NCBI GenBank assembly: GCA_012727815.1 | Contig: JAAYGI010000021.1 | Location: forward strand, 1-41,626 | Origin: Erysipelothrix sp. | GTDB taxonomy: Bacteria > Bacillota_I > Bacilli_A > Erysipelotrichales > Erysipelotrichaceae | Reading direction: 5' to 3' | DNA: 41,626 bases | In this document: positions 33,947 through 41,626 of the stretch, in pieces | Position numbering within the stretch: the first letter of the stretch is position 1 | Layout: every line of letters begins with the position of its first letter | The notes under the pieces: generated by a model | Told to the model about the DNA's origin: nothing | Database searches by the model: none | The model's input: only the letters and a program-made list of their open reading frames with translations | Made by a program: the position numbers and the translations under genes

Positions 33947-33979
33947 AAAGACAAAAGAAGTAAATCTTTTGTCTTTTTT
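33947..33979 (+). terminator. Terminator after the YugP-type protease
   Basis: AAAGACAAAAGA (33947-33958) and TCTTTTGTCTTT (33965-33976), twelve perfect pairs with a six-base loop, continuing into TTT. Confidence 0.87.
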
Positions 33980-34037
33980 ATGCTTCAATTTATATCTATT
34001 AGGACTCAAGTTAAATCATCCATACTTATTAGCAGAG

Positions 34038-35267
34038 GTGGTTATTATCTGGAAATCAGTAAGTGTATTTTTATTAGCAGTATCAAGTTTAACTTTTTCA
34101 AGTAATTATATAAATGTTGAAAGAGATAAGTTAAATTATGAAATTTTAAATGTATCTATTAACAATAATACTTTAGTAATAGATGGTTGGGCTACAATGC
34201 CCAGTTCTCAGCACTTTTTATCGAATACGACACATTCCTATGATCTAGAGTTAAATAGTGATAAGGAGCTTGTAAATTTACCTGGAACGCTTATAGCAAC
34301 AGATTTAACACAGCAAATGTCCTTTTCAGGCAATAAAACCTGCAATTCTAGTACTATAAATACAGACATATGTAACTATAACCATAAAAATGTGGGTTTC
34401 AAGTTTAGTATTCGACTCGATCAACTGAATGCTGATCAAGACTATAATGTCTACCTTAAAATGCATGCCAAACAAGCTAATAAAAGGTACAGAATCCCAG
34501 TGTTTTATGTTACAGATGGAGAAAAGATATTAAAGAGCGAAAGAAATCAATATATAATCAAAAGTGACTTCTCACATGCTAAATTTTCGATCTTTGCTCA
34601 TACTCTTATAGCACGTGACAGACCCAGTCCTAAAGGTAATTATGTCTATACAAAACAATCGTGTTCTACATCTTATAAAGATATTGGATATTTAAGACAA
34701 AATGCTGTCTTTCAAAATATTAAGGATATCTCACTCTATGATAACCGTATCACATATTTCAAGGTGAGGGTACAACCAAATGGTTGTGTGAACAATAGAT
34801 CGAGACTTGTAGAATCAAATACATCAAATTTATATGCATATGTTCCGAGCACACATATAAATTACTTAGGACAAGCGATGACCATTAGTGTTAGAGCCTT
34901 AGCATCTAAACCAAATTTATTTGTAGAAGATGTAATTTTAAATCAGTACGATAGATATGATCCTTATAAGTATGCACAAGCAACAGACTTATATGATGGC
35001 AATATCTCTAGAAAGATTACAATTGATAGTACAAACGTAAATATGAATATCCCTGGTTTGTATCAGACGTGCTACAGTGTTACAAACACTTCGAATTTTA
35101 CAACACAGGGCTGTGGTCGAGTTGAGGTAATTGCAATACCTACAAAAAAACGATTTGTATCGAAGTATACGATTCATGATACATATTTAAAAAGATGGGA
35201 TAGAAACAAACTTAAGACAAAACTGCATGTACAAGAATTCAAACTATCTGAAGTGATAGATAAGTAG
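34038..35267 (+). CDS. Predicted secreted protein with a C-terminal Ig-like (DUF5011-type) repeat, unknown function
   Basis: About 409 aa, not recognised overall. It begins with a signal-peptide-like stretch (IWKSVSVFLLAVSSLTFSS) followed by a beta-rich region (YEILNVSINNNTLVIDGWAT) and several Cys that could form disulfides (TCNSS/DICNY, QSCST, NGCVN). Near the end, DLYDGNISRKITIDS and PGLYQTCYSVTNTS resemble the DUF5011/HYR Ig-like fold common in surface proteins. No LPxTG or other anchor is seen. The start is uncertain: GTG 34038 is listed, but the best ribosome site (AGAGGTGG, 34034-34041) overlaps it and would suit ATT 34044 or ATC 34047; no in-frame ATG exists nearby. No promoter is obvious. 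Confidence 0.6.
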   Translation: MVIIWKSVSVFLLAVSSLTFSSNYINVERDKLNYEILNVSINNNTLVIDGWATMPSSQHFLSNTTHSYDLELNSDKELVNLPGTLIATDLTQQMSFSGNKTCNSSTINTDICNYNHKNVGFKFSIRLDQLNADQDYNVYLKMHAKQANKRYRIPVFYVTDGEKILKSERNQYIIKSDFSHAKFSIFAHTLIARDRPSPKGNYVYTKQSCSTSYKDIGYLRQNAVFQNIKDISLYDNRITYFKVRVQPNGCVNNRSRLVESNTSNLYAYVPSTHINYLGQAMTISVRALASKPNLFVEDVILNQYDRYDPYKYAQATDLYDGNISRKITIDSTNVNMNIPGLYQTCYSVTNTSNFTTQGCGRVEVIAIPTKKRFVSKYTIHDTYLKRWDRNKLKTKLHVQEFKLSEVIDK

Positions 35268-35410: not shown

Positions 35411-36595
35411 TTAGATTAATTTATCCAGGTCACTCTTACCATATGCAGGTGCTTCTACCTTGAAGTTATCAGCAATTGTAGCTGCAAGATTAGCAAATGT
35501 ATCTGTTTTATCTAATTCTTTAAACTCACGCATTGATGGTGAATAGTATAATCCAAAGACCTCTTCACGTGTGTGGTCTGTTCCTGGGAATGTTGGATCA
35601 TTACCATGGTCTGCAGTAAGGATCAATAGATCATCACTTCGAAGCTCATGTAATAGTAGTCCTAACTTCTCATCAAAGGTTTCAAGCTCTTGAGCATAGC
35701 CTTCTGGATTGCGTCTATGACCCCATAGTGCATCAAAATCTACTAAATTTACAAATAGGAGCCCTTTGAATTCTTTATTTTTAACAATGTCGATTGTTTG
35801 ATCCATTCCATCGACATTACTCTTAGTTCTAAAAGATTCTGTAATTCCTTCATTATCAAAGATGTCTACGATTTTACCTACAGAGATAACATCAAGGTCA
35901 GCATCTTTAAGAGCATCTAGTGTTGTTCTTCCGAAAGGTTTTAAAGCATAATCATGTCTGTTAGCAGTACGTTTGAATCCTGTTTCTTTATCTCCGACAA
36001 AAGGTCTTGCGATAACACGTCCAACCATCCATTCTGGTTTCATTGTTAATTCTCTAGCAATTTCACATACTCTATATAATTCATCAAGACCAAATGTTTC
36101 TTCATGTGCTGCAATTTGTAATACACTGTCAGCAGATGTATAGACAATCATTTTATTTGTCTTCATATGTTCTTCACCAAGTTCATCCAGAATTTCTGTA
36201 CCACTTGCTGCTTTATTTCCTATAATTTCATAACCTGTTTTTTCTGAAAGTTCATCTAGTAAGTCTTGTGGAAATCCATGTTCTGTAAAAGTAATAAAAG
36301 GTTTATCAATATAAAGCCCCATCATTTCCCAGTGTCCAGTCATAGTATCTTTACCTACTGACGCTTCCTGGAGTCTTTGACGGTATGCGTGTGGCTTATC
36401 AACGGGTTTAATACCTTCAATAGCGTGTAAGTTCCCCATTCCAAGGCTTTCCATAAAAGGCATATGAAGGCCACCATGTGCTTTGGCTGTATTACCGAAG
36501 GTATCTGAACCTACATCATTATATTTATCAGCATCGTGTGCTGCTCCAATACCTACTGAATCAAGTACTATTGTAATTATTCTGTTATATTTCAT
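35411..36595 (-). CDS. deoB: Phosphopentomutase DeoB
   Basis: 394-aa alkaline-phosphatase-superfamily mutase interconverting (deoxy)ribose 1- and 5-phosphates in nucleoside catabolism. Metal-site motifs: [13 protein letters not shown] at the N-terminus, [11 protein letters not shown] with the phosphorylated Thr, [13 protein letters not shown], and [20 protein letters not shown]. All are intact. ATG overlaps the xerD-like stop by four bases (ATGA), and the xerD-deoB neighbourhood is conserved in Bacillus. Last gene of the recN-dinB-xerD-deoB unit. Confidence 0.96.
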
Positions 36596-37506
36596 TCTTG
36601 TTCTCCCTTTTTGCTAAAATTAGCATTTAAATACTTATCATATTCATTTTTTACTGTTTCATTGCTAACATGTGTATATATTTGAGTTGTAGCAATATCT
36701 GTATGTCCTAAAATTTCTTGAATTACTCTTAAATCGACATCGTTTTGTAACAAATTTGTTGCAAGAGAGTGTCTGAGTGTATGTGCACTTACTTCTTGGG
36801 TCAAATTTGTCTCCATACGACGTTTTTGAATCATTGTATGAATGTATTGTCGTGTGACTGGATTACCTCTAAGGGTTATAAACACCCTGTTAGAGCCTTT
36901 ATTAGACAGTGTTGGGCGGATTGTCCTGGTATAATACTGAAGTTTACTTAATGTATCTTCATCTATGGGTACCATTCTCTCCTTATTCCCTTTTCCGATG
37001 ATTCTTAACCATCTTTCTTCCTCATAAACTTGAGAAAAGGTTAAATTAACACACTCAGATACGCGTATTCCTGTTTTAAATAGTAAAGTCAGAATAGCTA
37101 TATCTAAATAATCTTTTGCATCTTCCTTTTTAAATGATAACAGTTGATTTAACTGTGACTCATTTAAAGATTTAGGAAGTTGTAGCGGCCTTTTCTTGTT
37201 TTTAAGGTAAGCTGTGATATTGGTATCTATAATGTTGTATTGTATTAAATATTTGAATAAATTACGTATAGAAGCAATCTTACGATCGATAGAATTACTT
37301 GCGTATATTTCATTCAATTCATTAATATATGTTAAGAGTATTTCATAGCTTAAATCTTCAAATTTTTTAATCTCAATGGATTGTAAATATTCATGAAAGT
37401 GTTCTAAGTCGATACGGTATGCATCTACTGTATTTTCTGATTTAGGTTGTGTGTATTGAATGTGATATAAATAGTCATTTAATACTGTTACCATATCTTT
37501 TTTCAT
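36592..37506 (-). CDS. xerD: XerD-like site-specific tyrosine recombinase
   Basis: 304-aa tyrosine recombinase, with the N-terminal SAM-like DNA-binding domain and catalytic residues Arg148 (TGIRVSE), Lys172 (GKGNKER), His242 and Arg245 (HTLRHS), His268 (LGHTD) and Tyr277 (TQIYTHV). The chromosome-type size and the position next to deoB (as in Bacillus ripX/xerD-drm) argue for the housekeeping dimer-resolution enzyme rather than a phage integrase. AAGGAGGT precedes the ATG by three bases. XerC versus XerD cannot be proven from sequence alone. Confidence 0.88.
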
Positions 37507-37515
37507 ACTACCTCC

Positions 37516-38676
37516 TTATGAGTGATCCACTATATCAGTTTTGACAGGATAATCACTGCGTTTTATTTTCTTATGAGATTTTGATAAATTTGTTTTCTTA
37601 TTAACTGTAAAAAGACTGAGTTGTTCTTCTATTTGATCAATCGATTTAATGTTACTTAAGGATACAGAAAGAAATTTAACACCTGAAACTTCATGTTTGC
37701 CTTCAAACTCAGTATAAAGGCCCATGACACGTTCAAATATGTCTTCCTTATCATTTATATAATAATCTAAAGTGAGCGACCTTGCAACTGTAATCATATC
37801 TTCAAAGCGAATCGCAAACTGGATAGTCTTTGCTTTAACATTAGTATCTTTAGCACGTTTTTCAAGATCTATAATTTGATTGAGTATCTCTGTCTTCAAT
37901 TCATCAAGCTCATGAATTGGTTTTGAGTATGTTAATGAGTGCCCAATTGATTTGGCAGTTGTATCTGTATCGATAATATCAGATCCAGTACCCATTGCTA
38001 AATCTATATATATTTGAGTCCGGTTCCCAAATATATTACGTAATACTCCAAATGGTGCATTGGCTAAATCACCAATAGTGAATATTCCTACTTTATGTAA
38101 TCTTGGAACTGTTTTTCTACCAATGCCAAACATATCTTCAATAGGTAGTGGCCAAATTTTTGCTTCGACTTCCCTTTTCCTTATGACAGTAATTCCTAAG
38201 GGCTTGTTCATATCAGATCCCATCTTAGCTAGAAATTTATTGGGTGCAATTCCTATATTAACAGGAAGTTTTAACTCTTCATAGACTCTTTTTTGTATCT
38301 CTATTGCAAGATCTAGAGGTCTTTTATAGTTTTTAATAGTTTCTGTGAAATCTACATAGACCTCATCAACAGAACCAGGTTCTACAAGCGGTGAATAGCT
38401 TGTAATTAGGTCGATGAATTTTTGTGATAAGTCTTCATATAAATCAAAATCAACATGAACAACAATCAACTCTGGGCATATTAGTTTAGCCTGAGTCATA
38501 AGCATTGCACTTTTGACCCCTCTTTTTCGGGCTTCATAAGATGCTGAAGTAACAACAGATCCCTTTACAACATGGCATGCAGCAACAGGTTTACCTTGAA
38601 GAGATGGGTCAAGGGCAATATGAGCACTTGCAAAAAAAGCATTGATATCGATGTGAAATATAACTTTAGCTGACAT
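37516..38676 (-). CDS. dinB: DNA polymerase IV (DinB), copy nearest xerD
   Basis: 386-aa Y-family translesion polymerase. Catalytic carboxylates are present: Asp10 in FHIDINAFFASAH and Asp104-Glu105 in GSVDEVYVDF. The palm/thumb segments NIGIAPNKFLAKMGSDMNKP and GIGRKTVPRLHKVGIFTIGDL (helix-hairpin-helix) and a little-finger domain follow. A beta-clamp binding peptide, QLSLF (352-356), is near the C-terminus, with a basic tail after it. AGGAGGG precedes the ATG. Third and most distal of three tandem paralogues; 45 bases separate it from the next. Confidence 0.94.
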   Translation of the reverse strand: MSAKVIFHIDINAFFASAHIALDPSLQGKPVAACHVVKGSVVTSASYEARKRGVKSAMLMTQAKLICPELIVVHVDFDLYEDLSQKFIDLITSYSPLVEPGSVDEVYVDFTETIKNYKRPLDLAIEIQKRVYEELKLPVNIGIAPNKFLAKMGSDMNKPLGITVIRKREVEAKIWPLPIEDMFGIGRKTVPRLHKVGIFTIGDLANAPFGVLRNIFGNRTQIYIDLAMGTGSDIIDTDTTAKSIGHSLTYSKPIHELDELKTEILNQIIDLEKRAKDTNVKAKTIQFAIRFEDMITVARSLTLDYYINDKEDIFERVMGLYTEFEGKHEVSGVKFLSVSLSNIKSIDQIEEQLSLFTVNKKTNLSKSHKKIKRSDYPVKTDIVDHS

Positions 38677-38721
38677 TGTTCCCTCCTTAAGGTTTGAGTT
38701 GTGTACATAAGATAAATACTT

Positions 38722-39888
38722 TTATTTTTTATCAAACAGTGTACTTGCACGCGCAAATCCACCGCCAAAATTTTCATTCAAATTGTCGATCATTGTATCA
38801 GTATCTAGGTCTTTATTTAGAGAAAATATATTCAATTGTTCTTCTATCTCATCAATGACTTTAATATTATTCAGTGTAATAGAGATGAAAGTGACTCCTT
38901 TGTGGTGTTTGTCATGAAACATTTCATAAAGAGCCATAACACGTTCTAATATCTCTTCTTTATCATTAATATAATAATCTAGACTAATAGAACGAGCTGC
39001 TGTATCTGAATCTTCAAATCTGATTGCAAACTGTATTGTTTTACCTTTAAGATGGTACTTTTTAGCACGTGCTTCAAGATTTTCAATTTCATGTATTATC
39101 TTTGATTTTAATTCGTCTAATTCATAGATAGGTGTAGAAAATGTTTGTGATTGACCAACAGATTTGGCAGTCGTTTCTCGTACAATTGTAGATGAACCTA
39201 AACCATTGGAGTGATCAATAAAATGTTGTGTTTTATTCCCTAAGACGCCTCTTATAGTATCAAATGGAATTGTATTCAAATCACCAATTGTAAATACTTG
39301 GATATCATGTAATCGTGGTACTGTTTTTTTACCAATACCAAACATATCTTCGATGGGTAATGGCCATAATTTTGTCTCTACTTCTCTTTTTCTTAAAACA
39401 GTAATTCCTAAGGGTTTATCCATATCCGATGCCATTTTAGCTAAAAACTTATTGGGTGCAATCCCAATACTGATGGGTAGCTTTAATGAATCAAATACAC
39501 GCTTTTGAATCTCTACTGCCAAGTCTAATGGATGTTTATATTCTTTGATTTTCTCTGTTAAATCAACAAATACTTCATCAATGGAAGCTTGTTGAACATC
39601 TTCAGAATAAGATTGAATGATATCTACAAACTTTCTTGAAAGATCTACATATAGTTTAAAGTTTATATCTATTATTTTAAGTTGCGGACACAGTCTTTTT
39701 GCCTGTGATAGTGGCATCGCACTGCCTACCCCAAATTTTCTTGCCTCATAAGATGCAGTTGTAATAACAGCACCTTTAACATTATTACAAACAACAATAG
39801 GAAGTCCTTCAAGAGTGGGATCTTCTATAATATGTGCATTTGCAAAAAATGCATTTATATCAATATGAAAAATAACACGTGCACTCAT
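38722..39888 (-). CDS. dinB: DNA polymerase IV (DinB), middle copy
   Basis: 388-aa Y-family polymerase with intact catalytic residues (Asp10 in FHIDINAFFANAH; Asp104-Glu105 in ASIDEVFVDL), the SIGIAPNKFLAKMASDMDKP and GIGKKTVPRLH segments and the clamp motif QLNIF (351-355). A distinctive C-terminus (ENFGGGFARASTLFDKK) differs from the other two copies. AAGGAGA lies before ATG 39888; the frame is open further upstream but without a ribosome site. Sixteen bases separate it from the copy next to recN. Confidence 0.94.
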   Translation of the reverse strand: MSARVIFHIDINAFFANAHIIEDPTLEGLPIVVCNNVKGAVITTASYEARKFGVGSAMPLSQAKRLCPQLKIIDINFKLYVDLSRKFVDIIQSYSEDVQQASIDEVFVDLTEKIKEYKHPLDLAVEIQKRVFDSLKLPISIGIAPNKFLAKMASDMDKPLGITVLRKREVETKLWPLPIEDMFGIGKKTVPRLHDIQVFTIGDLNTIPFDTIRGVLGNKTQHFIDHSNGLGSSTIVRETTAKSVGQSQTFSTPIYELDELKSKIIHEIENLEARAKKYHLKGKTIQFAIRFEDSDTAARSISLDYYINDKEEILERVMALYEMFHDKHHKGVTFISITLNNIKVIDEIEEQLNIFSLNKDLDTDTMIDNLNENFGGGFARASTLFDKK

Positions 39889-39904
39889 AAACTTCTCCTT
39901 TTCA

Positions 39905-41083
39905 TCAATCTTTAACGTTTGCTTTATAAGCATGTAATTTCATTTCCATCTTTGGATATCTTCTTAGAACTTCTAAGTCCTCTAATTTTAAAGCTTCATC
40001 ATTTTGAATGTCAGCTTTAAATAGATCCAGTTGTTCTTCTATTTCTCTAATGTCTTTTAAATTAGTAAGTGTTGTAGAAATAAAAGTAACGCCACCATAG
40101 TCCTGGTTTTCAAATTCACCAAACAATAGCATAACGCGTTCAAATATTTCCTTTGTATCATTTATATAATAGTCTAAAGTACGTGATCGGGCTGAAGTTT
40201 CTTTATTTTCAAAACCTATTGAAAACTGAATTGTTTTACCTTTAACAAAATCTTGTCTAGCCCGCCTTGATAAGGTTTCAATATCATGAAGTATTTCAGA
40301 TTTAACCTCTTCTATTTCGTGGATTGCTTTTGTAAAAGTTTGTGATTGTCCTATAGACTTTGCAGTGGTATTAGTATCAATATCATTAGAACCAATACCA
40401 TTGGCTAGATCGACGAAATACTGGGCACGATTAGCAAGGACTGCCTTAACTTTTTCAAAGGGTTGCTTTACTAAGTCTCCAATAGTAAAGACATCTATTT
40501 CATGAAGCCTGGGAACAGTTTTCCTACCAATACCAAACATCTCTTCGATGGGTAATGGCCATAATTTACTTTGGACTTCCCTTTTCCTTAGAACAGTAAT
40601 TCCTAAGGGTTTGTTCATGTCAGATGCCATTTTAGCTAAAAATTTATTGGGAGCGATTCCAATATTTACAGGCAGTGAAAGTTCATCTAACATTCTTTTT
40701 TGTATTTCTGTTGCCAGATCTAAGGGTTGAGCATACTCTTTTATTTTATCTGTGAGATCAACATAAACCTCATCTACTGAAGCTTGCTCTATTTCGGTAG
40801 AATAAGTACTGATTAGGTCATAAAACTTCTCAGACAGTTCTGTATAGAGTTCAAAATCAACAAAGACTGGTTTTACTGCTGGATATAATTTACGTGCTTC
40901 AGATAGTATCATGGCTGTTTCAATACCATGGTATCTTGCTTCATAAGAAGCAGATGTGATGACGTTTCCTTTAACATGGTGGCATACAACAACTGCTTCA
41001 CCTTTCAAGGATGGATCTTTAGCGATATGTGCGCTTGCGAAAAACGAGTTAATATCTATATGAAATATGATACGTACTGACAA
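39905..41083 (-). CDS. dinB: DNA polymerase IV (DinB), copy nearest recN
   Basis: 392-aa Y-family polymerase; Asp10 in FHIDINSFFASAH, Asp104-Glu105 in ASVDEVYVDL, NIGIAPNKFLAKMASDMNKP, GIGRKTVPRLHEIDVFTIGDL and the clamp motif QLDLF (351-355) are all present. The C-terminus is longer than in the other copies (KMEMKLHAYKANVKD). The start is TTG 41083: it gives MSVRIIFHID, matching the MSARVIFHID and MSAKVIFHID of its paralogues, and AAAGGGGTG precedes it. Only three bases separate it from recN, so its translation is probably coupled to recN. Confidence 0.93.
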   Translation of the reverse strand: MSVRIIFHIDINSFFASAHIAKDPSLKGEAVVVCHHVKGNVITSASYEARYHGIETAMILSEARKLYPAVKPVFVDFELYTELSEKFYDLISTYSTEIEQASVDEVYVDLTDKIKEYAQPLDLATEIQKRMLDELSLPVNIGIAPNKFLAKMASDMNKPLGITVLRKREVQSKLWPLPIEEMFGIGRKTVPRLHEIDVFTIGDLVKQPFEKVKAVLANRAQYFVDLANGIGSNDIDTNTTAKSIGQSQTFTKAIHEIEEVKSEILHDIETLSRRARQDFVKGKTIQFSIGFENKETSARSRTLDYYINDTKEIFERVMLLFGEFENQDYGGVTFISTTLTNLKDIREIEEQLDLFKADIQNDEALKLEDLEVLRRYPKMEMKLHAYKANVKD

Positions 41084-41086
41084 TTA

Positions 41087-41626
41087 CTACACCCCTTTAT
41101 CTAATATTCTTTGTGCTACTTTTAAAGCGTCTTTATCGGCATGGCCTGTCATCATTAATGCCAGTTGTTCGAGCCTTTTTCTAGTATCTATTTTATGTAC
41201 TTTAGTAATGGTATTATTTTCAAGGACTTCTTTTGAAATAAGATAATGTGCACTTGCATAAGCTGCAACTGATGGCAGGTGCGTGATCGAAATGACTTGT
41301 AATTTCGAAGAGATTTCTTTCATTTTTTCTGCTATCTTTAAAGCTACCTTACCACTTACTCCGGTATCTATTTCGTCAAATATCAAAGTAGGTTTATCTT
41401 GTGAGTTTGCAAAGATAACCTTAAGTCCCAACATTAAGCGTGACAATTCGCCTCCACTAGCGACTTCGGATAAAACTTCAAGTTGCATACCTTTATTAAA
41501 ACTTACCATGAACTTAATATCATCACATCCGTCGTCCATATAGTCTTTGTCTTTTATTAATATTTCAAATCGAGTATCAATGAGCATTAAGTCATTGAGT
41601 TCTTTTATTACAAGTGATTCTAAGGA
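41087..41626 (-). CDS. recN: DNA repair protein RecN, C-terminal part
   Basis: The last 179 residues of RecN, an SMC-like ATPase acting early at double-strand breaks; the 5' part lies beyond the window edge. Seen: the ABC signature SGGELSRLMLGLK, Walker B TLIFDEIDTGVSG, the D-loop/H-loop region QVISITHLPSVAAYA and the end RLEQLALMMTG. It is the first visible gene of a minus-strand unit with three dinB genes, xerD and deoB. In Bacillus recN is SOS-induced; the promoter here lies outside the window. Confidence 0.95.
   Translation of the reverse strand, partial: SLESLVIKELNDLMLIDTRFEILIKDKDYMDDGCDDIKFMVSFNKGMQLEVLSEVASGGELSRLMLGLKVIFANSQDKPTLIFDEIDTGVSGKVALKIAEKMKEISSKLQVISITHLPSVAAYASAHYLISKEVLENNTITKVHKIDTRKRLEQLALMMTGHADKDALKVAQRILDKGV

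Follow-up and report, generated by a model that had tools for sequence, protein, structure and literature searches.

Bacterial genomes with multiple DinB paralogues are well known, and three are present in M. smegmatis (PMC4176160). The mycobacterial DinB1, DinB2 and DinB3 differ from one another in function (PMC4176160, PMC3901139), and the passages of the literature available to us place them at separate loci by their locus tags (PMC3901139) and in separate PolY groups (PMC12926913). Many Y-family polymerases carry a C-terminal tail; according to two studies (PMC6511836, PMC12926913), such tails are homologous to the N-terminus of RecA (RecA-NT motif) and are predicted computationally to bind RecA, and the majority of bacterial PolY groups have them, B. 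subtilis YqjH among the carriers. A two-hybrid study in B. subtilis described the link between PolY1 and RecA as indirect and reported that RecA both promotes and limits PolY synthesis (PMC13335488). The role of the RecA-NT-like tail in DinB-type polymerases is the question on which the locus described here bears. Among the titles and passages of the literature searched, we found no report of tandem dinB arrays or of an Erysipelothrix Pol IV, and the searched passages of a survey of bacterial polymerases (PMC12926913) mention no tandem dinB array.

An uncultured Erysipelothrix-lineage bacterium carries three intact dinB-type Y-family polymerase genes head to tail on the minus strand between recN and xerD (Table 1). 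They resemble PolY1 (B. subtilis YqjH type) in their best NCBIfam model (PRK01810, DNA polymerase IV), in a QLxxF clamp-binding peptide and, for dinB2, in a post-clamp tail that is putatively of the RecA-NT-like kind reported for YqjH. Unlike PolY1, they are three tandem paralogues and not one gene, two of them are tail-less, and their PRK01810 scores (340, 357 and 352 bits) stay under the curated cut-off of 399. The mycobacterial set also comprises three paralogues in one genome, whereas the copies of this array stand in tandem and descend from one gene within the genus; moreover, M. smegmatis DinB2 lacks the aromatic steric gate that all three array copies keep. UmuC/YqjW/UvrX-type polymerases with YolD or UmuD partners carry a RecA-NT tail, to which that of dinB2 is putatively similar, and other-class PolYs occur in congeners, but we found none of this type in this genome, and the array copies score far below the UmuC model (92–101 versus 431 bits).

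Gene integrity, fold and putative operon context

Table 1. Features of the dinB array and its neighbours; positions refer to the window, that is, the whole stretch of 41,626 nucleotides analysed.
Feature	Position	Strand	Remark
recN, 3' part	41087..41626	-	cut by contig end; remainder on contig C122
dinB1, derived copy, 392 aa, TTG start	39905..41083	-	Y-family polymerase
dinB1 clamp-binding peptide QLDLF	40019..40033	-	
dinB1 tail	39908..40018	-	without match to the conserved post-clamp tail
dinB2, conservative copy, 388 aa	38722..39888	-	Y-family polymerase
dinB2 clamp-binding peptide QLNIF	38824..38838	-	
dinB2 tail	38725..38823	-	conserved post-clamp motif, putatively RecA-NT-like (PMC6511836)
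dinB3, derived copy, 386 aa	37516..38676	-	Y-family polymerase
dinB3 clamp-binding peptide QLSLF	37609..37623	-	
dinB3 tail, lysine-rich	37519..37608	-	conserved motif undetectable
xerD-type tyrosine recombinase	36592..37506	-	Phage_integrase and Phage_int_SAM_1 domains
deoB, next in conserved block	35411..36595	-	synteny with congeners, 69–79% identity

The structural claims of an earlier sequence-only reading of this DNA, namely three tandem and intact dinB genes behind recN, very short spacers, conserved catalytic residues and clamp peptides, and differing C-terminal tails, were all borne out. The three reading frames are complete, the catalytic residues D10, D104 and E105 are present in every copy together with the aromatic steric-gate residue F15 and the fingers residues Y47 and R50, each copy has the clamp-binding peptide that had been read there, and the tails that follow differ. 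Counted from the sequence, the spacers are 3 bp (recN–dinB1), 16 bp (dinB1–dinB2), 45 bp (dinB2–dinB3) and 9 bp (dinB3–xerD), and we saw no convincing promoter or terminator within the array. The start of dinB2 is an ATG behind a good ribosome site, with the mechanically called frame beginning farther upstream. Pairwise amino-acid identity among the copies is 59–62%, and their base composition resembles that of the flanking genes (GC 0.32–0.34, GC3 0.19–0.23). We take the gene behind xerD to be deoB (phosphopentomutase), by sequence recognition. On the plus strand, positions 33969–35267 of the window encode a possibly secreted protein of 432 aa, the sole recognised part of which is a bacterial surface Ig-like domain (residues 320–381).

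All three products match the Pfam families IMS, IMS_HHH and IMS_C above cut-off. The Pol IV equivalog model PRK02406 (cut-off 256) is passed by dinB2 (266.5 bits) and dinB3 (259.8) and failed by dinB1 (230.5). An AlphaFold model of dinB1 (pLDDT 84.7) retrieved Y-family structures throughout with Foldseek (E 5e-45 to 2e-30), the top match being an entry titled DPO41-RPOZ (34% identity), which we take to be B. subtilis PolY1. The Y-family fold of palm, fingers, thumb and little finger is assigned to dinB1 by AlphaFold and Foldseek, to dinB2 by an AlphaFold model and to dinB3 by homology; the tail regions of both models are of low confidence and uninformative. On these matches, all three are probably polymerases of the DNA polymerase IV (DinB) type, with a predicted low-fidelity lesion-bypass activity.

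Upstream of recN, contig C122 carries dxs, ispA, xseB, xseA and nusB, all on the same strand; these names are our assignment, made by sequence recognition and from the usual gene order in Firmicutes. The polymerases therefore look like passengers of a long housekeeping operon, nusB-xseA-xseB-ispA-dxs-recN, and not like parts of a break-repair cassette. RecA was found in 13 of 13 Erysipelothrix-lineage genomes, and the LexA DNA-binding domain (PF01726) reached the cut-off in none of the 13 genomes of the genus, with one sub-threshold hit (G005, L111). SOS co-induction with recN was considered and set aside for want of a clear LexA in the genus. The proposal that a place between recN and xerD signals co-expression with double-strand-break repair thus fared poorly: the position is ancestral, recN-dinB is common in the order, the operon looks housekeeping and the genus has no clear LexA.

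Assembly, ancestral arrangement and origin of the array

The source genome is metagenome-like, with 123 contigs, 84% completeness and 3% contamination. Contig C122 (L109, 1–674) overlaps positions 40953–41626 of the window by 674 bp at 97.3% DNA identity, a region that covers recN and the start of dinB1. Two recN-dinB1 variants at this identity mean that at least two strains contributed to the assembly. The overlap also backs the recN–dinB1 junction independently, from a co-occurring strain; the dinB1–dinB2 and dinB2–dinB3 junctions rest on a single contig. A fourth dinB on C122 was ruled out, as the sequence is this same overlap. Within the 131 bp of dinB1 that are shared, both differences between the strain variants are synonymous.

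Such a mixed and slightly contaminated genome makes it conceivable that three alleles from related strains, or from related species, were joined in a row as a chimera. However, the distance between the strain variants is about 3% in DNA and that between the dinB copies about 40% in protein, the longest exact run common to any two copies is 26 bp, and the copies are separated by clean intergenic spacers with ribosome sites. Given this divergence and the lack of longer exact runs, strain collapse or repeat-driven misassembly is unlikely, and we consider an assembly artefact of any such kind highly improbable. Of the two findings that the sequence-only reading had named as fatal to itself, near-identical copies did not turn up, and a collapsed or artefactual duplication is unlikely.

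In congeners, the block recN-dinB-xerD-deoB contains one dinB wherever it is fully readable, some contigs being cut at one end of it. This arrangement is ancestral in the genus, which is sparsely sampled with 13 species, and recN-dinB or recN-dinB-xerD is often kept farther out in the family and the order. More than one strong dinB match was found only in this genome, both among the 172 genomes of the family that have a strong match (E <= 1e-60) and among the 204 such genomes of the order (E <= 1e-70), thresholds that could miss a more diverged second copy. Congener genomes hold 2–5 PolYs in total, at least one of which is always of another class (about 409 and about 480 aa). Outside the array, we found no PolY in this 84%-complete genome, and the missing classes may sit in the unassembled 16%. 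The number of PolYs, three, is therefore ordinary for the genus; their tandem arrangement is unusual.

In a maximum-likelihood tree, the three copies form one clade against all 28 other sequences (support 99/95), dinB1 and dinB3 pair within it (100/98), and the clade is sister to the single copy of a congener (G011/L035). This topology places the origin of the array in this lineage, later than its separation from that congener: the one recN-linked dinB, of PolY1/YqjH type, was triplicated in tandem. The triplication is old: at fourfold sites of conserved residues, divergence is 0.54–0.60 between the copies, against 0.68–0.76 to the G011 orthologue. Third codon positions differ at 0.51–0.54 and second positions at 0.20–0.22 between copies. 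Under an IQ-TREE codon model, most terminal branches measured 2–10 substitutions per codon, so that silent sites are taken as saturated. Gene conversion between the copies was examined and discarded, because the clustering of shared codons was not significant (best p 0.08). The earlier suggestion that the copies are not a recent amplification thus holds in part: they are old, maintained and diverged, but they are still an amplification, and the phylogeny that had been proposed as a check shows copies that are far from identical and yet form one lineage-specific clade beside a single-copy congener. With only 13 species sampled in the genus, an unsampled donor carrying this clade could be imagined, from which the extra copies would have been gained horizontally instead of being duplicated in place; the single clade against 28 other sequences and a base composition like that of the flanking genes make such a gain from other Erysipelothrix-like bacteria very unlikely.

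Asymmetric divergence, the post-clamp tail and competing explanations

The copies have not evolved evenly. With the nearest outgroup, relative-rate tests counted 56 unique changes in dinB1 versus 29 in dinB2 (p 0.003), and 54 in dinB3 versus 27 in dinB2 (p 0.003); four other outgroups gave the same direction with p 0.0015–0.17, weaker with some. At 132 sites invariant in the genus, dinB2 shows 12 changes, dinB1 25 and dinB3 24. The substitutions T44S, I103V and S140N are common to dinB1 and dinB3. Both have, furthermore, lost P59 of the SAMP motif in the fingers, which has become I in dinB1 and L in dinB3, whereas 26 of the 28 relatives compared retain it. By a phmmer alignment to Dpo4, read against the structure of that enzyme, P59 adjoins residues that roof the template base; that its replacement alters the choice of lesion is a guess.

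Single-copy orthologues of the genus share a conserved stretch behind the clamp peptide, of the type IIxRLNKEL...FKxxSxLLK. Scored with a profile of this tail from which the copies in the window had been left out, dinB2 reached 16.8 bits, a value that 0 of 2000 shuffles matched, and dinB1 -1.8 bits, which 1705 of 2000 shuffles matched; no score was reported for dinB3. The profile aligns in register to the RecA N-termini of relatives, with a weak match (probability 15%, pairwise p 0.0017). Given this weak match, and since the link has been called indirect in B. subtilis (PMC13335488), contact of the dinB2 tail with RecA is here a prediction from the literature. Taken together, rates and tails point to dinB2 as the conservative copy and to dinB1 and dinB3 as faster, tail-less derived copies. 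The prediction of three maintained functions is met halfway: the genes are intact, old and maintained, but only one conservative and two derived copies are evident.

We give a probability of about one half to the reading that an old in-place triplication has left one conservative, RecA-modulated Pol IV and two derived ones recruited by the clamp. The single recN-linked dinB would have triplicated in tandem, with dinB2 branching off first and retaining the clamp peptide and RecA-NT-like tail, and with them presumably the ancestral RecA-modulated lesion bypass. dinB1 and dinB3 would stem from a later common ancestor; both have changed at a higher rate, no longer carry the tail and have substitutions in the fingers, but retain the catalytic residues and the clamp peptide. 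They would work as stand-alone polymerases that the clamp alone recruits, with altered template or lesion preference, and may partly stand in for the other PolY classes apparently missing here. Gene integrity, the clade, the order of splits, the rate asymmetry and the tail loss are directly supported, in one species and on one contig; active enzymes, a tail that touches RecA and a sharing of tasks among the copies are predicted parts of the reading. A bolder form of it, in which an ancestral RecA-responsive Pol IV gave rise at its own locus to a pair of clamp-only enzymes, independent of RecA and altered in the fingers, that replace the dispersed PolYs of other classes otherwise carried in the genus, is doubtful; if true, it would amount to a graded translesion system run from one operon.

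What weighs against one conservative and two derived polymerases is that faster change could also be decay towards redundancy. dinB1 and dinB3 might be slowly decaying spare copies, with dinB2 alone of importance, as their faster rates, twice the substitutions at genus-invariant sites and lost tails would suggest. Against such decay, their frames are still open at near-saturated silent divergence, their catalytic, steric-gate and clamp sites are intact, and the strain differences in dinB1 are silent; we hold it to be unlikely, though live. Another live rival, to which we lend a little more credence while still judging it improbable, is dosage: more DinB of similar activity would be useful, and the copies would have drifted under purifying selection without new roles. 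The complete set of catalytic and clamp residues in all copies, the excess of differences at third over second codon positions and the short spacers with no convincing internal promoter or terminator agree with this, but pure dosage would predict neither unequal rates nor a tail lost from just two of the copies nor proteins that differ by about 40%.

Significance and DinB termini in relatives

The array offers a natural experiment: a single cell holds three polymerases derived from the same gene, all of which have clamp peptides but only one of which has the tail. Comparing copies with and without the tail would show whether it couples Pol IV to RecA. Moreover, the locus may be a case in which the paralogues of one gene replace different polymerases that relatives keep dispersed.

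Variation at the end of DinB is also seen elsewhere. Four single-copy, recN-linked DinBs of relatives (L041 443–1495, L042 3291–4343, L044 6001–7053 and L047 6001–7059) stop at or just past the clamp peptide, so that loss of the tail is not unique to the array. In four genomes of one genus of the family (g8; G019, G282, G283 and G284), an in-frame TAG lies inside the aligned stretch of the DinB match, and it may reflect a slightly early gene end, read-through or loss.
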